This document shows positions 8,688 through 27,826 of a DNA stretch of 34,945 nt, in pieces (the first letter of the stretch is position 1; every line of letters begins with the position of its first letter). The notes beneath the pieces were generated by a model, which saw only the letters and a list, made by a program, of their open reading frames with translations, did no database searches and was not told the DNA's origin. The DNA comes from Hymenobacter sp. (GTDB lineage: Bacteria; Bacteroidota; Bacteroidia; Cytophagales; Hymenobacteraceae), in NCBI GenBank assembly GCA_025353905.1, contig JANXNW010000065.1, positions 1 to 34,945 of the forward strand. Direction: 5' to 3'. Made by a program: the position numbers and the translations under genes.

Positions 8688-10130
8688 ATGACCTTCAACG
8701 ACTTAAATCTGATTGAGCCCCTGCTCCGCGCCCTGAGCGACGAGGGCTACACTACCCCCACCCCGATTCAGCAGCAGGCCATTCCGCAGGTGCTCGAAGG
8801 GCACGACCTGCTCGGCGTAGCCCAGACCGGCACCGGCAAAACGGCCGCCTTCTCGGTGCCCATCCTGCAAATCCTGCATCAGAAAGACCAGACCAGCAAA
8901 GCCGGCCAGGGGCCGCGCGGCCGCATCCGCTGCCTCGTGCTAACGCCCACCCGCGAGCTCGCCATCCAAATTGCCGAGAGCTTTAAGGCGTACGGCCGCC
9001 ACCTGCCGGGCCTGCGCTCGACCGTTATCTTTGGCGGCGTGGGCCAGGGCCCGCAAGTGTCGGCGCTGCAGCGCGGGGTCGAAATTTTGGTGGCCACGCC
9101 CGGCCGCCTGCTCGATTTGATGAACCAGGGCTATGTCCACTTGCAGCACCTCGAAGTGTTTGTGCTTGACGAAGCCGACCGGATGCTCGACATGGGCTTC
9201 ATCCACGACATCAAGCGGATTCTGCCCAAGCTGCCAGCCAGCCGCCAGAGCCTGTTTTTCTCGGCTACCATGCCGCAGGCCATTCGCGAGTTGTCGGCCA
9301 CCATCCTGCGCCCCAACCCGGTGCAGGTGGCCGTTACACCGGTGTCGAGCACGGCCGACACGGTGACGCAATCCGTGTTTCTGGTCGATAAGAACGACAA
9401 GCCGGCCCTGCTGCGCCACGTGCTGCAAGACCCCGCCATCCGGCGCGTACTCGTCTTCACCCGCACCAAGCACGGGGCTAATAAGGTGACTGAGACGCTG
9501 GAAAAAGCCAGCATCCCGGCCGAGGCCATCCACGGCAACAAGAGCCAGACCCACCGCCAGCGGGCGCTGGCCAACTTCAAGTCGGGGGCCACGCGGGTGC
9601 TCGTCGCGACCGACATCGCCGCCCGCGGCATCGACGTGGACGACCTCACGCACGTCATCAATTATGAGGTGCCCAACGAGCCCGAAACCTACGTGCACCG
9701 CATCGGCCGCACCGGACGGGCCGGCAACTTCGGCACCGCATTTACATTTGTGGAGGACGAAGAGCGTGCGTATCTACAAGATATTCAGAAGCTTATTCGC
9801 CGGCAGCTCGACGTAGACGTGGCCCACCCCTACACTACTTCCCGCGTAGCCCCCGTCTCGCTCAACGGCAACGAGCGCATCATCCGGCCCAAAGGCCCCG
9901 CGGGCCGGCCGGCCCGCGACGGGCGCGGCAGCAGCGGCCCGAGCCAGGGCCGAAGCGGCGGCGGCAACGGCAGTGGCCGGGGCGAGCATCGCAGCAGCGG
10001 CCGCCCACCGGGTGGTGAGCGCTCGGGCGCGTCGGCAGGCGGCTCGGGGGGCGGTTCGCGGAGCGGTGGCGGACGCTCGTCGTGGTCGGGCGGGCGCAGC
10101 GGCGGCGGCGATGGCGGCGGTCGTCGCTAA
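8688..10130 (+). CDS. rhlE: DEAD-box RNA helicase, RhlE type
   Basis: A 480-aa ATP-dependent RNA helicase. The motifs appear in order: Q motif with F3 and [13 protein letters not shown] at 45-52, PTRELA near 88, TPGR near 137, DEAD at 161-164, SAT at 192-194, then [11 protein letters not shown] and [10 protein letters not shown] in the second RecA domain. The core ends near residue 385 and is followed by a disordered Gly/Ser/Arg tail of about 95 residues with RGG-like patches, typical of Bacteroidota RhlE proteins and used for RNA binding. It probably remodels rRNA or mRNA structure in ribosome assembly or cold adaptation. The long predicted 5' leader would allow post-transcriptional control. 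The start is the first ATG in frame and fits the family. Confidence 0.93.
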
Positions 10131-10264: not shown

Positions 10265-10467
10265 TATTTAAAACCTGATGGCTTCTTACGCTGCTTTAGC
10301 GCAATAGCTGGTCCCGGCTGGGGCGGGCGAGTCGGTTTCATCGGCGCGCTCGTCTTGGCCGGGACTACTTTTTTGGGCACGGGTAACAACCAGGGCAAAC
10401 AAAGGCAGGCGGCTCGCGCTTTTCTGGCTGGTTTTTGGATTCATCATCCCGTAATTTCGCTTTCGCT
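10265..10467 (+). other. Intergenic leader region before the Cys-rich unknown
   Basis: No gene seen here. The stretch holds an inverted GTCCCGGC / GCCGGGAC pair (near 10312 and 10358) followed by CTACTTTTTTG, and a TAATTTCG box 8 bp before the downstream ATG that may be its -7 element. Confidence 0.35.
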
Positions 10468-11096: not shown

Positions 11097-11270
11097 TTAG
11101 TAGCTCACGTTGCTTTTCTGCGCCTCACGATAGCCTTCGGTGCGATGGGCCCGCTTGTAGGCGGCATCGGCACTAGGGTCTTTTTCGGCGTCGGGGGCCT
11201 GCGAGCAGGCGCCTAGCAGCAGGGCCGCGCCAGCGGCCAGCAGGATGGAGTACGTGCGCAGGCTTTTCAT
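11097..11270 (-). CDS. Small lipoprotein (57 aa)
   Basis: This gene is below the size limit of the ORF track. Translation gives MKSLRTYSILLAAGAALLLG followed by ACSQAPDAEKD, ending KSNVSY. It has a basic N terminus, a hydrophobic h-region and a lipobox LLGAC with Cys22, so it should be lipidated and anchored in the membrane. The short mature part (about 36 residues) is charged and Ala/Lys-rich, with repeated Tyr. The start is supported by a perfect -7 box TATCTTTG exactly 4 bp before the ATG. The family is not recognised. Small lipoproteins of this form are common beside envelope genes. An ACAAWTGT site lies 170 bp upstream. Confidence 0.82.
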   Translation of the reverse strand: MKSLRTYSILLAAGAALLLGACSQAPDAEKDPSADAAYKRAHRTEGYREAQKSNVSY

Positions 11271-11282: not shown

Positions 11283-12211
11283 CGGAAGCCGCCCGCAAAC
11301 GGATAAGACCACGCAGTTAGCAGTGGTCCAGAGCGCTCGCGAAGGACCCCGCTTACAATGGCCCGCCCGCACCGAACGAGACCAGCCCTGCCCAATCGGA
11401 CCCGCATCAGGCCGGCAGTTGGCCAGAGGCAGCTGATTTACATTTGTCAAGTCTATCAGGACGGTATTTATCGGCCGTTGTTTACTGATTTGGGATGCCC
11501 GGCCACATTAGCAAGCCCGCCTGGCTGACTAACGCGCTTGGCGGCATTTGGGCGCGACAGAAAAGGCCGTTTTATCCGGCCAGACGGGCTTGGCAGCGCC
11601 CGATACAGCACCTGGCTTGCGTAAGTAGTTGGCAGTCTAAATTTATACTTTACGACGCGACGCGCATGGCAACTCATTTAGTAGGCCGGCATCTGATATG
11701 AGGGCGCTAACCATATTACCACATGTTTCATTTTAAATTTATTCGGCCAACTGTGCAGAGGGCATAATTTTATTGAATCAATAGAAGACTAAAACAATTG
11801 CAAATTGTTGAAAAACAATAGATTATTAAATTTAAAAGACTGATTCTAGAACGAGCTAATGGGCTACCTACTTAGTATTACTATTCCCAGAAATAGGGCA
11901 GACCAATCTTATCGCGTTATAGAGCTCAGGAGTCGTATTTAACCGGTTGAAACCGTGCTGGGTGGGTGCCGACTTAATAAAACTTATCAGCGAATCAGCG
12001 TGGCAAAACGCATTAGCTCTCGCCCGAATTGCCCCTGACCAATGGAATAGTCCCGCAGAGCCGGACCAGCCAAGCGCATTAGTCAAGTAAAGAGCCGTAC
12101 ATACGCGGCAGTTTCAGTCTCAAAACTTTCTTTTTCAGAACGATGGCTGTTTGCTCGACAAAACTGCCGTCAGTTACCAATCAACTACCAAGTGGCAATG
12201 GGTTACCGGGA
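11283..12211. other. Gene-poor, AT-richer stretch
   Basis: No convincing gene in about 930 bp. Short ORFs on both strands (60-73 aa) have no recognisable domain. The centre (about 11700-11870) is strikingly AT-rich for this genome and contains an exact 11-bp inverted repeat TTTTAAATTTA / TAAATTTAAAA (11731-11741 and 11827-11837). The stretch may be decayed foreign DNA or a long regulatory region. A 17-bp near-identical inverted pair (TGACTAA-GCGCTTGGC near 11525 and its complement near 12065) brackets it. Confidence 0.5.
11440..11447. promoter_or_regulatory. ACAAWTGT site (reads ACATTTGT)
   Basis: One of eight intergenic ACAAATGT/ACAATTGT octamers between 11.4 and 15.4 kb. It lies upstream of the lipoprotein gene and downstream of the XRE gene. 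Candidate regulator-binding site; see findings. Confidence 0.35.
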
Positions 12212-12907
12212 CTACTGCTCGGGCAGATAGTCGGAAAAGGAGCCGTCGCGGTAAAAAATGACAATGCGCCGAATGGCTTTGCCGGGCTCGCCCAGAAAAG
12301 CCAGTGGGCTTAGGTCGGCGGGAGCTGAACCCGTGGCCATCGCCGCAGCTCCGGCCCCAATGGGAAGCGATACGGCAATCGGCGCATGGCCCGAAGCCGC
12401 CAAGGGCGACGGCGCGGAAGCCGCCAGCACGGGTGTTTCATCCGGGCGTAGCGAACGCAGAGGGTTAGCGGCCGCTGATGCGGCCGACGAAACCGCCGTC
12501 GCGGCCAGCCCTGGCCGCGGCGAAACTGGACTGGGAGCCTGACTAGGAGCCTGACTGGGGGCTGGCATGGGAGCAGCCGGAGCAACCGGAGCCCGCCCGG
12601 ACTGCGCGGGGGCTGGCTCAATGGCTGCTTTGCGCTCGCGGGGCACGGACGACCGGGCGGGAGGAGCCGCTGATGGCCCCGCAGGCGCGCCCCCGCCAGT
12701 ACCTAACATGTCGCCCGTGCCTTCCAGCAGCCATTCTAGCGAGATTTCAGGAAACGCCCGGCGGATGTGTAAAGCTACTTCCAGGCTGGGCTTGTTGCGC
12801 TCGCTCAAGATGTGGCTCACCACGGGCCGGCCCACGCCGATGCGGTCGGCGAACTGCGTGGGAGTGAGCTGACGTAGCTCCAGAAGTTGACGGATGCGCG
12901 CGACCAT
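12212..12907 (-). CDS. XRE-family helix-turn-helix regulator with Pro/Ala-rich linker
   Basis: A 231-aa protein. Residues 1-65 are a clear XRE/Cro-type HTH: TPTQFADRIGVGRPVVSHIL with the recognition helix around RPVVSHILSERNKPSLE, then EISLEWLLEGTGDML, typical of Bacteroidota XRE proteins. Residues ~70-195 are a low-complexity Pro/Ala/Ser linker. The C terminus ends in a short, apparently conserved patch, AIRRIVIFYRDGSFSDYLPE, which may be a sensor, oligomerisation or peptide-docking tail. A perfect palindrome GTGAAAT-TT-ATTTCAC sits 2 bp before the ATG and ACAAWTGT sites lie upstream, suggesting autoregulation. It may control the adjacent L,D-transpeptidase and lipoprotein genes (inference). 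The ATG at 12907 is the only sensible start. Confidence 0.85.
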   Translation of the reverse strand: MVARIRQLLELRQLTPTQFADRIGVGRPVVSHILSERNKPSLEVALHIRRAFPEISLEWLLEGTGDMLGTGGGAPAGPSAAPPARSSVPRERKAAIEPAPAQSGRAPVAPAAPMPAPSQAPSQAPSPVSPRPGLAATAVSSAASAAANPLRSLRPDETPVLAASAPSPLAASGHAPIAVSLPIGAGAAAMATGSAPADLSPLAFLGEPGKAIRRIVIFYRDGSFSDYLPEQ

Positions 12908-12909
12908 AA

Positions 12910-12925
12910 GTGAAATTTATTTCAC
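12910..12925. promoter_or_regulatory. Operator-like palindrome at the XRE gene start
   Basis: GTGAAAT-TT-ATTTCAC: perfect 7-bp arms with a 2-bp centre, starting two bases upstream of the XRE start codon. A second smaller palindrome CACA-AA-TGTG (12923-12932) overlaps its edge. The position would block transcription or translation initiation, so autorepression is likely. Confidence 0.5.
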
Positions 12926-13107
12926 AAATGTGCGAATTAATCCCCGAACCTACTCTGACCCCACCGCCGCGTTCGACACTCACTACCCCCGAAAACATAG
13001 GCACCGGATTGATACAATTGTTTGTTCTTGTCTAATTCGACAATTAAGTAATACAAATGTTACTTCACATATGGGGTTGCCCGGAAACCCCATACCAATA
13101 CAATTGT
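12924..13107. promoter_or_regulatory. Four ACAAWTGT octamers upstream of the XRE gene
   Basis: ACAAATGT at 12924-12931, ACAATTGT at 13014-13021, ACAAATGT at 13053-13060 and ACAATTGT at 13100-13107. All share the symmetric ACA-NN-TGT form and occur within 184 bp. Some could instead be parts of -7 promoter boxes. Confidence 0.45.
13070..13094. terminator. Hairpin downstream of the L,D-transpeptidase gene
   Basis: Perfect 9-bp arms TATGGGGTT (13070-13078) and AACCCCATA (13086-13094) with a 7-nt loop. It lies 89 bp after the L,D-transpeptidase stop. There is no strong T tract, so a terminator role is likely but not certain. Confidence 0.45.
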
Positions 13108-13182
13108 AATCAGTCTAATGCCTACGTCATGCCCCTTCACGCGGGTGGCCGCGCGCCCAATGAGCGGCAATTTTCCTCCAGG

Positions 13183-14970
13183 CTATCCCTTAAAATAAAC
13201 TTTGGCCAGGGTCCGGTCGTGGCCATAAATGTCATCGCGAAAGTGCGCGTGGCCGGCGGTATCGGCCCAGGCCGTGAAATAAACCAGGTAAACGGGCAGC
13301 GGCTGCCGCAGGGTAATATAGCGCTCGCGGCGCCGGGCAATAGTATCCTGAACGGCGCGCCGGCCCCAGCCGGGCGCGTCGCGCAACAGGTAAGTTGCCA
13401 GCCGGACCGGCTCTTCCAGCCGGACGCAGCCGTGGCTGAAATCGCGCCGCGACTCGGCAAAAAGCTGGCCGTGGGGCGTGTCGTGGAGGTAGATGTCGTC
13501 GGAGTTGGGGAAGATGAATTTCACGTCGCCCAGGTCGTTGCGGGGGCCGGGGCGGCGACGCAGGGTGTAGCGAAAAGTAGCCGCCGTGAGACGAGCCCAG
13601 TCGATATTGCCCGGGTCCACGACGGTGGCCCGGCGGCCCGAGCCGCGCACTACTTCCATGTCGTAGCGGGCGAGGCAGGCGCGCGGGTTGGCGATGAGCT
13701 GCGGGCGCAGCTCCTTTTCGATAATGCTAAACGGCACGTTCCAGTACGGGGCCAGCACCACGTATTCGAGCTTATCGGAAAAAACCGGGGTGGCCGTGAG
13801 CGCCTTGCCCACGATGACGCGCATGGTGAGCGCCTCGCGACCCTGCGTGAACACGCGCAGCCGAAATTCGGGGATATTGACGAGCAGGTAATCAGGCTCG
13901 AATTTCTTGGGCAGCCAGCGCCAGCGCTCCAGGTTGAGAATCACCTGGCGGATGCGCTCGTCGAGCGGCACGTTGAGCGCACGCAGGGTTTCGCCCCCCA
14001 CCACGCCGGTGGGGCGCAGGCCATAATCGGCCTGGAAGCCGCGTACCGCCGCCACCAGCTCCGCGTCGTAGGTGGCCGTGGCGACGGGATTGGCCGCGGC
14101 AATCGGACTGGCATTTGCCACATTAACCAAGCTGACTTTCAACGCGCTATCCCGGCTACTGTCGGCAGGGTGAGCGACGGCCGCAGCGCGCAGCCGCTGC
14201 CGCAACAGCGCCACCACGAGGCCATCTACCGCACCGGGCCGCAGCAGCGTCGCCGACGGCAGGCGGGGCCAGCCACCGGCGGCTTGGTGGGCCCGCAGCT
14301 CGGCCAGGGCCTTTTTGAGGTAGCCGTACTGCGGGTGCAGGGGGGAAAAATCGGCGTAGGCGTAGGAGCTGACGCGCTCGCCCAGGGTGGCGGCCAGGGC
14401 GTGGTCGAGCTTGATTTTGTTGCGCTTGACCCGCCAGGCGGTGTTGCGGGTGTCGGCCGGGTTGGCCACGCCACGATAGAAGTCGGAGGCCCAGGTAAAA
14501 TACAAGCCCGAGAGGCCCACGTCGAGGCCGCGCTCCAGGGCATTGCGGCGGGTGGTGTTGGGGCTTCCCCCGGCGGCGGCCAGCTTCTCGAAAACGCGCA
14601 GGCTGTCTTGCACGGCCCGCACAGGGTAGCGGCGCGGGTCGAGACCATCGTCGGCGGCGCGGGCCACGGTGGCGAGCAGCGTGGCGGCCGGCGGCACGAG
14701 TCGGTGCTGCCGAAACCAGGCCAGCCGGAACTGCCGCTCGCGGTAGAACTTGCGGGCCCAGCGCTCCTGCGCCCGGAAGCGCGCTTCGGCCTGCAGCGCC
14801 CGCACCACGAAGGGACTGTCGAGACGGGGGGCGGGGTCGGCGGCGGGGCTCAGCGCCGAGCCCGTCGCGGCCGTGTCCGGCGGGCGCTTACTGCCGCAGC
14901 CGGGCAGCAAGGCCAACAAGCCCAGGCTGGCCAACAGGGCCAGCAGCACGAATCGAAAACCAAGCAACAT
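13183..14970 (-). CDS. L,D-transpeptidase lipoprotein, YcbB/LdtD type
   Basis: A 595-aa protein with a lipoprotein signal (hydrophobic run, lipobox LPGC, Cys25). It is therefore anchored in a membrane facing the periplasm. Residues ~60-330 form the scaffold domain seen in LdtD/YcbB proteins, including a peptidoglycan-binding-like segment AAVRGFQADYGLRPTGVVGG. The catalytic YkuD domain follows: VNIPEFRLRVF, then IYLHDTPHGQLFAESRRDFS and HGCVRLEEP with nucleophile Cys515. It forms 3-3 crosslinks in peptidoglycan or links it to other molecules, bypassing D,D-transpeptidases. Its length is typical of the YcbB group. A TACTTTGC promoter box lies 74 bp upstream. The 700-aa ORF on the opposite strand is a GC shadow. 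The XRE gene downstream is on the same strand. Confidence 0.92.
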   Translation of the reverse strand: MLLGFRFVLLALLASLGLLALLPGCGSKRPPDTAATGSALSPAADPAPRLDSPFVVRALQAEARFRAQERWARKFYRERQFRLAWFRQHRLVPPAATLLATVARAADDGLDPRRYPVRAVQDSLRVFEKLAAAGGSPNTTRRNALERGLDVGLSGLYFTWASDFYRGVANPADTRNTAWRVKRNKIKLDHALAATLGERVSSYAYADFSPLHPQYGYLKKALAELRAHQAAGGWPRLPSATLLRPGAVDGLVVALLRQRLRAAAVAHPADSSRDSALKVSLVNVANASPIAAANPVATATYDAELVAAVRGFQADYGLRPTGVVGGETLRALNVPLDERIRQVILNLERWRWLPKKFEPDYLLVNIPEFRLRVFTQGREALTMRVIVGKALTATPVFSDKLEYVVLAPYWNVPFSIIEKELRPQLIANPRACLARYDMEVVRGSGRRATVVDPGNIDWARLTAATFRYTLRRRPGPRNDLGDVKFIFPNSDDIYLHDTPHGQLFAESRRDFSHGCVRLEEPVRLATYLLRDAPGWGRRAVQDTIARRRERYITLRQPLPVYLVYFTAWADTAGHAHFRDDIYGHDRTLAKVYFKG

Positions 14971-15043
14971 AAAAACGGAGCAAACAAGCGGCGGGCACGG
15001 CCCTCAGGGAGAAGAGGCCGGCGCGGGAGAAGGGCCGCTTTGC

Positions 15044-15051
15044 GCAAAGTA
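15044..15051 (-). promoter_or_regulatory. -7 element TACTTTGC for the L,D-transpeptidase
   Basis: On the minus strand TACTTTGC (TACTTTG core) lies 74 bp before the ATG at 14970, a normal leader length. Confidence 0.5.
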
Positions 15052-15394
15052 CGTTGCCAACCGACTGCCAGCCGCACGTTCCTCGGTCGCGCGAGTCGGC
15101 GAGTAAGGGCGCGCGGGTCGGCACGGGGGGCCCGGTTTGTGGTAGTCGCCACGGACTAGTGGCAGCGACTACCAGCTAATTAACAAATGTGTTCAGGTAC
15201 GACCTGCGCGAAAGCCAATCTGTGCTGGGGTGGTGAGCGCTAAACATGACCGTCCGGGATTTGAAATCTTTTATAACAAATGTTAATCAATGTCGCCGAA
15301 TTCAGTCGGAATGGTTATGTGAATTTAGAGTTACCGCCAGCGTTACAAATGTACCGAGTCTTACCCTGGCAGCCAGGTAGGTGCCAGCAGGGCT
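15052..15394. promoter_or_regulatory. Divergent control region with three ACAAATGT sites
   Basis: No gene is seen between the L,D-transpeptidase and cyanophycinase promoters. The region carries ACAAATGT at 15183-15190, 15276-15283 and 15345-15352. The octamers are identical to the sites near the XRE gene. On the minus strand the last one reads TACATTTG, a perfect -7 consensus, so it may be a second distal promoter for the L,D-transpeptidase. Confidence 0.4.
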
Positions 15395-15402
15395 TACTTT
15401 TG
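15395..15402 (+). promoter_or_regulatory. -7 element TACTTTTG for cyanophycinase
   Basis: Perfect TAnnTTTG match 44 bp before the GTG at 15447. It lies inside the longer track ORF and shows that the upstream GTG at 15381 cannot be the start if this promoter is used. Confidence 0.55.
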
Positions 15403-15446
15403 CCTCGTTCTCTAAAAACAACCTCACTCCCCCGTATTTGCCAGTA

Positions 15447-16346
15447 GTGAAAAATTCCCTCCCTCCTCATGGCAAGCTGCTGGCCGTGGGGGGCAACGAA
15501 GACAAGGGCACCTACCCTTCGGTGCGCTCGAAGCGCAAGTACTACCTCAACTTTTTTGAGCTGGGCATCCTCAAACGGGTCGTGTCGGAGTCGGGCCTCA
15601 CCGACCCGCGCATCGAAGTCATCACCACGGCCTCGATGATACCGCACGAGGTGGGGCCAGTGTACACGGCCGCCTTCGCCATGCTCGACTGCCACCGGGT
15701 GGGGGTGCTCGACATCGGGCAGCCGGGCCAGGCCGACCAGCCCGAGCACCTGGCCCGGCTGCGGGCCGCCGACGTAGTCATGATATCGGGCGGCAATCAG
15801 TCCCGCCTCACTCAGATGTTTGGCGGCACCGAGTTTCTGGCGGTGCTACGCCGGCGCTACCTCGCCGAGCCGAACTTCGTGGTGGCCGGCACCAGCGCCG
15901 GGGCCATGGCCATGTCGGCCCACATGATACGCGGCGGCTCGGTGCCCGACGCGCTGCTGAAAGGGGCCGTGAAGATGGGCGCGGGCCTGGGCCTGCTGCC
16001 AGGGGCCATCATAGACTCACACTTCGTCAAGCGCGGGCGCTTCGGGCGGCTCATTGAGGCCGTGGCCCTGCACCCGGCCCTTATCGGCATCGGGCTGGGC
16101 GAAGACACGGGCGTGCTCATCACCGAAGGCCGCTGGGTCGAAACGGTGGGGTCGAACCTGGTCATTATCCTCGACGGCCACTCGCTGGGCCACAACAACG
16201 CCGCCGCCGTGGGCAAGGGCAGCGCGCTTTCCATCGAAAATTTCCGGATGCACGTGCTGGCCAAAGGCAACGTGTATGATTTGCGTGAGCGCAAATTCTA
16301 CGTCAGCCACGCCCCGCTCATGCTCCCCGACCCAGCCAAGGAGTAG
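15447..16346 (+). CDS. cphB: Cyanophycinase (peptidase family S51)
   Basis: A 299-aa serine exopeptidase that degrades the storage polymer cyanophycin (multi-L-arginyl-poly-L-aspartate) to beta-Asp-Arg dipeptides. The N-terminal GKLLAVGGNEDKG is the family hallmark; ISGGNQSRL, the nucleophile Ser150 in VAGTSAGAMAMS, and IDSHFVKRGRFGRL with His192 complete the picture, followed by GLGEDTGVLI. There is no signal peptide, so the enzyme is cytosolic. The start is set at GTG 15447, which puts the first strand near residue 10 as in homologues and lies behind a perfect -7 box. Isoaspartyl peptidase, the next enzyme of the pathway, lies 0.7 kb away on the other strand. Cyanophycin synthetase is not in the window. 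Confidence 0.92.
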   Translation: MKNSLPPHGKLLAVGGNEDKGTYPSVRSKRKYYLNFFELGILKRVVSESGLTDPRIEVITTASMIPHEVGPVYTAAFAMLDCHRVGVLDIGQPGQADQPEHLARLRAADVVMISGGNQSRLTQMFGGTEFLAVLRRRYLAEPNFVVAGTSAGAMAMSAHMIRGGSVPDALLKGAVKMGAGLGLLPGAIIDSHFVKRGRFGRLIEAVALHPALIGIGLGEDTGVLITEGRWVETVGSNLVIILDGHSLGHNNAAAVGKGSALSIENFRMHVLAKGNVYDLRERKFYVSHAPLMLPDPAKE

Positions 16347-16364: not shown

Positions 16365-16664
16365 TCAGCCCCCGGAGCGGCCGGGGTCACGGCGGGTGTC
16401 CACGACGGCGAGCACCTCGATTTCATTCTGCTCGGCGGCGTACTGGTAGTAGAGGCGCGTGGTTTTGTTGGCCAGCCACTCGCGGGTAGCCGGTCGCTGG
16501 GGTGAAAGCTTGCCCAGCTCAGGCATAACGGTCAGGGCCGCGCCCGCTTTGGCTACGTCGGCCAGGAAACTCGTTTTGGCGCTCTGCGAGAAGTGCTCTG
16601 CCAGCCAAGCGGCTTGTAATTCAATGTTGGCCAACGCTTCGGGAGAAATACTGAGTTTTGTCAT
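16365..16664 (-). CDS. ParE/RelE-like toxin of a toxin-antitoxin pair
   Basis: A 99-aa protein with the compact ParE/RelE fold pattern: an N-terminal strand (LSISPEALANIE), a helical hairpin (LQAAWLAEHFSQSAKTSFLA), MPELGKLSP, then C-terminal strands TTRLYYQYAAEQNEIEVLAV and VDTRRDP with Arg and Asp near the end. RelE members cleave mRNA on the ribosome and ParE members poison gyrase; the sequence alone does not decide which. The start ATG (16664) lies 13 bp after the stop of the upstream small gene on the same strand, the classic antitoxin-first order. The longer track ORF adds residues that overlap that gene. Confidence 0.78.
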   Translation of the reverse strand: MTKLSISPEALANIELQAAWLAEHFSQSAKTSFLADVAKAGAALTVMPELGKLSPQRPATREWLANKTTRLYYQYAAEQNEIEVLAVVDTRRDPGRSGG

Positions 16665-16677
16665 GTACCCCGACTGA

Positions 16678-16962
16678 CTACTGCTGCATAAGTTTAGCCA
16701 TCGCCTCTTCAAAAGGAATACCTTGCCCGGCGGCGAGGCTTTGCTCGCTGCGCAAAATCAGGTCCTGGGTCGCTGGGCTGAGGTCGTTCCAGAAATCTGC
16801 TTCGGCCACTGACGCTTCAGCCTGGGTTTGCAGCAGGGCCGCCACGGCTTGCAGAAACGCGGCATTGTCGACGCGCTCAGTCAAGGCGTGGACGGTTTGC
16901 CGCACGGCGGCCAAATCGGGCGCGGCGGCGGCGGCGACGGGAGCAGGAACGGTCGGGGTCAT
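16678..16962 (-). CDS. Putative antitoxin partner
   Basis: A 94-aa acidic protein with an Ala/Pro-rich N terminus (MTPTVPAPVAAAAAPDLAAV), then helices (VRQTVHALTERVDNAAFLQA) and a C-terminal stretch FWNDLSPATQDLILRSEQSL, ending GIPFEEAMAKLMQQ. The tail, with a hydrophobic helix and the PFEEAMAKL pattern, resembles antitoxin C termini that wrap around ParE/RelE toxins. No clear DNA-binding domain is visible at the N terminus, which is unusual. The ATG is supported by a TACATTTA box exactly 4 bp upstream. The longer 197-aa ORF runs into the isoaspartyl peptidase gene and is rejected. Assignment rests mainly on position and size. Confidence 0.62.
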   Translation of the reverse strand: MTPTVPAPVAAAAAPDLAAVRQTVHALTERVDNAAFLQAVAALLQTQAEASVAEADFWNDLSPATQDLILRSEQSLAAGQGIPFEEAMAKLMQQ

Positions 16963-17005
16963 AGCGTAAATGTAAAAAGCGTCTTGTAAAAAACTTCGGC
17001 CTCCG

Positions 17006-17043
17006 CGCCCTCTGCGCAACCCTCTGCGCCCTCTGCGGGCTAA
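17006..17043. repeat. CCTCTGCG direct repeat tract
   Basis: Three copies of CCCTCTGCG in 38 bp between the antitoxin and isoaspartyl peptidase genes. The same core (CCTCTGCG) recurs at the right end of the window (34850-34945), so this is a dispersed intergenic repeat. Confidence 0.6.
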
Positions 17044-17072
17044 AACAACGTTGCAACGAGCCGATACGAAAC

Positions 17073-18005
17073 CTAATAAATAGCCACCCGCTCCTCCCCC
17101 GCCGCGTCGCACCAGGCCCGATACATGCCGCCCGAATTGAAGGGCAGGGCCAGCTCGCCGGCCGCGCTCACGGCAATCAGGCCGCCCTCGCCGCCAACCG
17201 GGGCGAGCTTGTCGTGGACGACCACGCGGCAGGCTTCGGCCAGGCTCAAGCCTTTGTAGCGCATCAGGCACGAGACGTCATAGGCGGCCACGGCCCGCAT
17301 GAAGTCCTCACCGTTGCCGGTGCAGCTGATGGCCACCTCGGCGTCGGCCCAGGTGCCGGCCCCGGGCAGGGGCGTGTCGCCGATGCGCGAAAACCGCTTG
17401 TTAGTCATGCCGCCCGTACTGGTGGCGGCGGCCAGGTTGCCGTGCTGGTCGCGGGCGACGGCCCCCACGGTGCCTTTTTTCCAGTTAGCATCAACGACTG
17501 GCGCGGAGCCGGCGTGGTCGAGCTGCATTCGGCCGGCGGCGATGGCCTGCTGCAACTGGTCGAAGCGGCGCTGGGTGAAAAAATAATCGGCCGGCTGGGT
17601 GGGCAGCCCGTGCAGGCGGGCCAGCTCATCGGCCCCCGGATAGCCGAGCAGCACGTGCTCGGTGTGCTCCATGACGAGGCGGGCGGCGCGAATCGGGTTC
17701 TGGATTTCGCGCGCGCCGGCCACGGCCCCGACCCGGCCGCTGGCCCCGTCCATGAGGGCCGCGTCCAGCTCGTGGTGGCCGTCGTGGGTAAACACAGCCC
17801 CGCGCCCGGCGTTAAATAACGGATTGTCTTCGAGGCAGATGACGGCGGCCTCGACGGCGGCCAGCGCGGGCGCACCCTCGGCCAGCAGGCGGCGGCCGGC
17901 GGCCAGCGCGGCTTGCAGGCCGGCGCGGTAATCGGCTTCGAGGGCCGGGGTCAGCTCGGCGCGGGCAATGGTGCCGGCACCGCCGTGAATGGCAAGGGCG
18001 TACAT
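17073..18005 (-). CDS. iaaA: Isoaspartyl peptidase / type III-like L-asparaginase (Ntn hydrolase)
   Basis: A 310-aa protein of the plant-type asparaginase family. N-terminal ALAIHGGAGTI and NAGRGAVFTHDGHHELDA are characteristic. The autocleavage site is before Thr179 in KKGTVGAVA, giving alpha and beta subunits with Thr as nucleophile; STGGMTNKRFSRIGDTPLPG and SCTGNGEDFMR follow. The enzyme cleaves beta-Asp dipeptides, including the beta-Asp-Arg released by cyanophycinase, to free Asp and Arg. Its placement near the cyanophycinase gene supports that role; repair of isoaspartyl damage or asparagine hydrolysis are alternatives. The start at 18005 puts the first strand at residue 3. A hairpin palindrome lies 13 bp upstream. 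Confidence 0.93.
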   Translation of the reverse strand: MYALAIHGGAGTIARAELTPALEADYRAGLQAALAAGRRLLAEGAPALAAVEAAVICLEDNPLFNAGRGAVFTHDGHHELDAALMDGASGRVGAVAGAREIQNPIRAARLVMEHTEHVLLGYPGADELARLHGLPTQPADYFFTQRRFDQLQQAIAAGRMQLDHAGSAPVVDANWKKGTVGAVARDQHGNLAAATSTGGMTNKRFSRIGDTPLPGAGTWADAEVAISCTGNGEDFMRAVAAYDVSCLMRYKGLSLAEACRVVVHDKLAPVGGEGGLIAVSAAGELALPFNSGGMYRAWCDAAGEERVAIY

Positions 18006-26722: not shown

Positions 26723-27826
26723 CTACAATCCGTGGGTAGTTTCGCTCATGATGAAGTCCACGACCTTGGTCAGGTCGCCGGTTTGCTGGAATACGGCAAG
26801 CTGTCGGTCGGCTCCGGTACCCATTTCCAGCATTTGGAGCACGTATTCGGCCTCGTGGCGGCTACCCAGCTCGTCAAGCACGTCGTCCACGAAATCGAGC
26901 AATTCGAGGATGAGCTGCCGGGCGGGTTTTTCTTCCTGCGAGCCGAAATCAATCAGATTTCCCTCGATACCGTAGCGCGCGGCGCGCCATTTATTTTCCT
27001 TAATAAGCGCACTGCGGTAGAGTCTGAAATTCAGGTTTTGCTTTTTAAGCTTGTAAATTTTCGCTACCAAAGCTTGCATAACGGCGGCCACGGCGATGGT
27101 TTCGTCAGAGCGCATCATCATGTCGCAAATACGGTATTCGATGGTATCGAAAAACGGGTGCAGGCGCAAGTCCCACCATATTTTCTTGCCGTTGTCGATG
27201 CAGCCGGTTTTGATGAGCAACGCGATATACTCATCGTATTCCGACGCGCTGTTGAAATAACCCGGGATACCGGTGCGCGGAAACCGTTCGAACACTTTAG
27301 TCCTGAACGACTTATAACCCGTTTCACGCCCTTCCCAAAACGGCGAGTTGGTGCTCAGCGCAAACAAATGCGGCAGAAAATACCGGAGCGCGTTCATCAT
27401 GTACACGCCAATATCACGGTTTTCGATACCCACGTGCACGTGCATCCCAAATACGAGATTCGAGCGGGCGGCCTCCTGCAACTCCTCCACTATTTTGCTG
27501 TAGCGCGGGTCGGGCGTGATGGTCTGGTCCTGCCAGCGCGAAAACGGGTGAGTGCCGGCAGCGGCAATTTTTAGCCCCACACGGTCGGCCAATTCGATTA
27601 CCTGCCGCCGCAAATGCAATACTTCCACCCGCGCCTCGTCAATATTCTGGCAGATGTTGGTGCCGACTTCCACCACCGACTCGTGCATTTCGGCCTTCAC
27701 CTGCTCGTGGAGCGTGATTTTGCCGTCCTCCACGATTTTCGACATGTGTGAGCGCAACTCCCGCGTTTCGGGGTCAATCGTTTGAAACTCCTCCTCGATA
27801 CCGAGGGTAAACGTGGGCGTTGCCAT
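26723..27826 (-). CDS. Carboxylate-amine ligase, GCS2/YbdK family
   Basis: A 367-aa member of the glutamine-synthetase-like GCS2 family (COG2170), whose characterised relatives make gamma-glutamylcysteine with ATP. N-terminal FTLGIEEEFQTIDPETREL carries the metal-binding Glu cluster; GMHVHVGIENRD (127 onward) and WWDLRLHPFFDTIEYRICDM are the remaining active-site signatures. YbdK-type proteins have weak or unknown amine acceptors, so this is best described as an ATP-dependent ligase of a carboxylate and an amine. The length is normal. It sits between an ATP-grasp and an amidotransferase gene in the amidoligase cluster, strongly suggesting sequential amide-bond formation on a shared small molecule. 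The ATG follows heptad repeat H7. Confidence 0.92.
   Translation of the reverse strand: MATPTFTLGIEEEFQTIDPETRELRSHMSKIVEDGKITLHEQVKAEMHESVVEVGTNICQNIDEARVEVLHLRRQVIELADRVGLKIAAAGTHPFSRWQDQTITPDPRYSKIVEELQEAARSNLVFGMHVHVGIENRDIGVYMMNALRYFLPHLFALSTNSPFWEGRETGYKSFRTKVFERFPRTGIPGYFNSASEYDEYIALLIKTGCIDNGKKIWWDLRLHPFFDTIEYRICDMMMRSDETIAVAAVMQALVAKIYKLKKQNLNFRLYRSALIKENKWRAARYGIEGNLIDFGSQEEKPARQLILELLDFVDDVLDELGSRHEAEYVLQMLEMGTGADRQLAVFQQTGDLTKVVDFIMSETTHGL

Follow-up and report, generated by a model that had tools for sequence, protein, structure and literature searches.

XRE proteins that regulate their own genes through palindromic operators are an established kind. In the lambdoid repressors (P22 c2, 434 CI and Cro), several near-identical palindromic operators lie at the repressor's own promoter, and autoregulation is known in the HigA family of antitoxins. 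To our knowledge, few regulators of the phylum Bacteroidota have known operators. The main text of PMC12565409 describes 223 motif clusters of XRE regulators with palindromes upstream of their own genes, and it describes DdrO of Deinococcus as controlling a damage regulon; a word search of that main text returned no Bacteroidota example. Since nine of the ten gel shifts it reports for palindromes located upstream of other XRE genes were positive, the prior for self-binding by an XRE protein is raised.

What might account for a symmetric octamer clustered around one XRE regulator gene of Hymenobacter sp.? In the stretch of DNA analyzed here (34,945 nucleotides of contig JANXNW010000065.1, hereafter the window), the octamers are highly likely to be operators of the adjacent XRE protein through which it controls its own gene, most likely by repressing it. 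A scan of both strands for ACAAWTGT recovered all nine places named in the original prediction, eight intergenic copies and one coding copy near 9.7 kb (Table 1), and relaxing the centre to ACA-N2-TGT added only one window place, ACATGTGT at 27742. The coding copy, at 9744, is conserved at the codon level and found at the same place in the helicase gene of many relatives. There are 11 strand matches for ACAAWTGT in the window versus a mean of 0.86 in 100 dinucleotide shuffles, none of which reached 11. With each spacer shuffled at its own composition, the spacer between XRE and the L,D-transpeptidase gene (LDT) holds 4 octamers versus 0.03 expected, the LDT-cyanophycinase spacer 3 versus 0.02, and the lipoprotein-XRE spacer 1 versus 0.04 (P 0.04), or 8 versus 0.1 when the three spacers around XRE are pooled. 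Pattern searches of the organism's own genome, a 4.14-Mb draft of 435 contigs that is 82% complete, gave 44 strand matches, corresponding to approximately 36 distinct places, and no second octamer cluster of comparable kind. Because there are so few places in 4.14 Mb, the 4-kb stretch containing the octamers is exceptional in the genome, and, with no comparable cluster elsewhere, the uniform occurrence that the original prediction had named as counting against it was not found.

Table 1. Genes, protein regions and octamer copies around the XRE gene. Positions are those of the window; bit scores are from a matrix trained on relatives only.
Feature	Position	Strand	Remarks
Coding octamer, no operator	9744..9751		Inside DEAD-box helicase gene
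Small lipoprotein gene	11097..11270	-	57 aa; syntenic in relatives
Single copy	11440..11447		170 bp upstream of small lipoprotein gene; plus strand TACATTTG
XRE regulator gene	12212..12907	-	231 aa; HTH_3 domain, disordered Pro/Ala linker, conserved C-terminal hairpin
C-terminal motif IRRIVIFYRDGSFSDYLPEQ	12215..12274	-	aa 212-231; consensus kIekIviFYtDgTFxxYxP
DNA-binding domain	12719..12907	-	aa 1-63; order-wide alignments
Proximal candidate operator ACATTTGT	12924..12931	-	-24 from XRE start codon
Distal candidate operator ACAATTGT	13014..13021		-114 from XRE ATG
Distal candidate operator ACAAATGT	13053..13060		-153 from XRE ATG; sense strand ACATTTGT
Distal candidate operator ACAATTGT	13100..13107		-200 from XRE ATG
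LDT, YcbB-type L,D-transpeptidase lipoprotein gene	13183..14970	-	Pfam Scaffold, PG_binding_1, YkuD
Lineage-specific copy, LDT/cyanophycinase spacer	15183..15190		17.5 bits; no counterpart in 21 relatives
Lineage-specific copy, LDT/cyanophycinase spacer	15276..15283		TAACAAATGTTA palindrome; 21.1 bits
Lineage-specific copy, LDT/cyanophycinase spacer	15345..15352		15.5 bits; minus strand TACATTTG, possible -7 box
Cyanophycinase gene, divergent from LDT	15441..16346	+	NCBIfam TIGR02069 above cut-off

On the minus strand, the gene order is LDT, then XRE, then the small lipoprotein, and LDT is located directly upstream of XRE in the compared genomes of the genus. The original prediction spoke of an LDT/cyanophycinase divergent region, and these two genes are indeed divergent, but LDT and XRE are arranged in tandem, both on the minus strand with LDT first. 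Between the lipoprotein and XRE genes lie approximately 750 bp of AT-richer DNA (11450-12200) without convincing open reading frames, containing short ACAATTGC/CAAATTGTTG repeats near 11794. Beyond the cyanophycinase gene, at 16365-17271 on the minus strand, there is a ParE-like toxin open reading frame (Pfam PF05016, 2.1e-7) with an upstream open reading frame whose C terminus resembles its antitoxin, and this pair was not found at the same place in relatives.

The XRE protein matches Pfam HTH_3 (PF01381) at 1.4e-8 and 35.1 bits, above the gathering threshold of 23, and so possesses an XRE-type helix-turn-helix. Its AlphaFold model consists of a five-helix domain (residues 2-62, pLDDT 95+), a linker with pLDDT of about 50, and two strands, 215-218 and 224-227, with pLDDT of about 88. 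Alignments across the order show residues R27, S31, H32, R37, N38 and P40 to be invariant, the recognition-helix residues are invariant, and the C-terminal motif is kept while the linker varies in sequence and length. Of 120 genomes from the genus, 119 gave an XRE match at E<=1e-12, one of these matches possibly being a paralogue, and the best named relatives are proteins of Hymenobacter species. No curated model among Pfam and NCBIfam names the protein, a sequence search found no matching solved structure, and no paper on the motif or the protein family was found in the openly licensed literature; the family appears to be undescribed. Phage relatives were considered and discarded, there being only three weak matches that cover at most 58% of the query.

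To see how the octamers are distributed in relatives, we compared the 300-bp upstream regions of 86 XRE orthologues from the genus. ACA-N2-TGT is found 240 times in these regions versus 10.2 by dinucleotide shuffles, an approximately 24-fold enrichment, and it ranks first among 704 palindromic (inverted-repeat) patterns. Only one of the 86 regions is without any site. In 81 of them, ACATTTGT is placed at -23 to -40 from the start codon, always in the same orientation, and the aligned proximal block is GTACATTTGTAA, in which G-TACATTTGT-AA is most conserved. The commonest spacing between ACA-N2-TGT copies is 11 bp. In the window itself, the 13100 site is the top match to the relatives-only matrix, at 22.2 bits. 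When ACAWWTGT was counted in the 300 bp before each gene of 21 syntenic relatives, it reached 9.2 per kb before XRE versus 0-0.26 per kb before eight other genes of the same loci (LDT, lipoprotein, cyanophycinase, M1 peptidase, isoaspartyl peptidase, SSB, helicase, and the unnamed gene at 10435). Genus-wide, TTACAWWTGTAA outside the XRE locus is about as frequent as the reversed control pattern, and among 120 congeneric genomes the clustered pair is found at the XRE promoter in 34 of the 45 that bear a pair, the remainder being near control level. The position, symmetry, enrichment and conservation of the sites are matters of observation, as is their near-exclusive association with the XRE gene in many lineages. 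A second XRE family that is common in the genus and approximately 35% identical (L165-L184) has a recurrent upstream pattern of its own, TATACATTTG followed approximately 18 bp later by CATTTGG or CATTTGT, which is perhaps its own operator.

The association extends well beyond the genus. In 148 genomes of the order, where XRE genes were located independently of the sites, the perfect tandem TTACANNTGT-N1..6-ACANNTGTAA occurs at 11 places, and 10 of them are directly upstream of XRE. Proteins sharing this helix-turn-helix and C-terminal motif are found throughout the order and also in other classes. The ACA-N2-TGT palindrome occurs 69 times versus 5.6 expected in 25 upstream regions from Flavobacteriia, 53 versus 5.2 in 27 Bacteroidales-like regions, and 14 versus 1.1 in five from Cytophagia, and in each of the three groups it takes first or second rank among the palindrome patterns as a whole. 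For some of these sequences the C-terminal motif was not recognized, and a few may therefore be distant members. Outside the genus, the neighbours of XRE differ, and include ClpX, DapD, an S1-domain protein, a P-type ATPase and others, as named by reading their sequences rather than by family search. Because the sites persist while the neighbours change, they belong to the XRE gene and not to the envelope genes, and the self-operator wiring has very probably been kept with the XRE gene across the phylum Bacteroidota. Phylogenetic footprinting, both within the genus (86 orthologues) and in other classes, thus supports the proposal that the XRE protein controls itself. Several genomes of a single family (f25; L291-L294, L297, L299, L305) show an XRE match with one in-frame stop; this could reflect a missed frame or a start artefact, or the stop could be real.

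We infer the following mechanism, direct negative autoregulation by a dimer being the simplest interpretation. Dimers of the N-terminal helix-turn-helix domain would bind several sites in the XRE promoter, each with a full operator form close to TTTACA-NN-TGTAAA. The proximal operator would be superimposed on the -7 element, so that protein bound there would obstruct RNA polymerase and thereby repress its own gene. The distal sites, frequently paired one helical turn apart, would raise occupancy and permit cooperative binding of dimers, perhaps by way of the conserved hairpin that ends the long, flexible C-terminal linker. It is also conceivable that the distal sites serve activation instead of repression.

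The -7 consensus of Bacteroidota is TAnnTTTG at -12 to -5 (PMC9723704), and the proximal site overlaps a -7-like box at 12925-12932, which is CACATTTG in the window and TACATTTG in most relatives, in agreement with the caveat of the original prediction regarding overlap between some copies and -7 boxes. Only one element serves here to assign the putative promoter, because the box in the window reads CACATTTG instead of TANNTTTG and the aligned upstream regions showed no -33 TTG at a fixed position ahead of the proximal site. Could the copies then be merely -7 boxes together with AT-rich spacer composition? The proximal copy does fit TAnnTTTG in most orthologues, and XRE paralogues, which are about 35% identical, have the TACATTTG box in their promoters, but neither those promoters nor the other promoters of the same loci possess an array. 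Four of the five orthologues without proximal ACATTTGT retain TAGATTTG though the palindrome is broken; they read TAGATTTGT, with TAnnTTTG retained and one operator half gone, as expected if two overlapping signals are present, of which the -7 box has been kept. Given centres of AT (49), TA (27), AA (26) and TT (24), a -7 box is not a possible reading of most distal sites, in particular of the 76 of 158 with AT or TA at the centre, and shuffles that preserve dinucleotide composition do not approach the observed enrichment. We therefore regard the -7-box explanation as very unlikely. It is quite improbable that another, global regulator binds the sites and has the XRE gene under its control in every one of these lineages: the identity of a binder is not readable from sequence, which leaves room for such a protein, but strong sites and pairs occur at the XRE gene only, unlike those of a global regulator, the array follows the XRE gene when its surroundings change, the recognition residues are conserved as much as the sites, and we found no direct evidence for a global regulator.

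The original prediction went further and proposed a local envelope regulon, with the lipoprotein, LDT and cyanophycinase genes under the control of the XRE protein along with its own gene. In its favour, LDT adjoins XRE throughout the genus, and the three copies between LDT and cyanophycinase far exceed the 0.02 expected and score 15.5-21.1 bits with the relatives-only matrix. As a general property, however, the regulon lacks support, since in the 21 syntenic relatives the octamer is not above background before LDT (0.16 per kb), the lipoprotein gene (0.16) or the cyanophycinase gene (0), compared with the XRE value given above, and outside the genus XRE has other neighbours. The lipoprotein-side copy is single, with a P value of only 0.04, and is present at that position in one of 21 syntenic relatives; it may be a chance occurrence or a promoter box, which are not distinguishable here. 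The spacer between LDT and cyanophycinase (14971-15440) is itself atypical because the M1-family peptidase gene that separates the two genes in the examined relatives is missing; a search of the rest of the draft genome, which is incomplete, gave no close orthologue, the best match being 32% identical. The local envelope regulon is doubtful, though it retains some plausibility. The LDT/cyanophycinase copies are probably a lineage-specific recruitment of the XRE operator, and XRE control may have been extended recently to LDT and/or cyanophycinase in the species of the window. Two other explanations were discarded. Apparently conserved LDT/cyanophycinase operators at approximately 11 kb of the relatives' syntenic loci are actually inside the M1 peptidase coding sequence. 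As for a duplicated XRE promoter in the spacer, similarity between the two goes no further than the octamers and 7-10 bp matches. Between LDT and the operator-like copies, at 15140-15176, there is an inverted repeat, GGTAGTCGC...GCGACTACC, without a T-run.

Returning to the self-operator reading, a DNA motif can now be assigned to an unnamed regulator family of Flavobacteriia, Cytophagia and Bacteroidales, and nearby octamers should not be taken for a conserved envelope regulon. For the tandem operators, no second conserved target was found, whether in the 120 congeneric genomes or in the order-wide set of 148. We also rejected a wider regulon within the organism's own genome: the outside sites that score best with the relatives-trained matrix lie next to genes that are unrelated and share no theme, including one resembling a TonB receptor and a further XRE gene. 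A TACATTTGTA site is present approximately 80 bp upstream of a longer XRE gene at a different place in this genome (G000:C387:2335; L055:2036). Such deep conservation of self-operators without a second conserved target raises the question of what the regulator is for. One speculative answer, which we consider rather unlikely, is that the only strong chromosomal target of this Bacteroidota-wide XRE family is its own promoter, in a self-limiting circuit that stands by itself, and that its output is not a regulon but, for example, a protein partner captured by the hairpin.

The regulators described in the main text of PMC12565409 follow the logic proposed here, a palindrome before the gene's own reading frame that is bound by its product; before the XRE gene such palindromes are present and conserved, and its product is predicted to bind them. 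The HigA antitoxins share the XRE helix-turn-helix, and the NCBIfam HigA model TIGR02607 matches the XRE protein weakly (20.9 bits versus a cut-off of 47.7); there is no adjacent HigB or conserved toxin gene, the neighbours being LDT and the lipoprotein gene, and others outside the genus. DdrO is the best Foldseek match to the XRE helix-turn-helix (6jq1, 32% identity over 68 columns, E 4.4e-3). Unlike DdrO, the XRE protein has no second conserved target that we could find, and its C-terminal part is a short hairpin rather than a DdrO-type domain, the C-terminal half of the model being otherwise disordered. The lambdoid repressors have the same fold type of helix-turn-helix, with P22 c2-DNA (3jxb), 434 (2or1) and 434 Cro (2cro) among the top Foldseek matches. 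Unlike them, the XRE protein is without the S24 peptidase (LexA/CI-type) C-terminal domain, only HTH models having matched in the Pfam scan, and it is encoded by a chromosomal core gene without a divergent phage promoter, whose sites, unlike lambdoid operators, have a 2-bp centre and a Bacteroidota -7 box.
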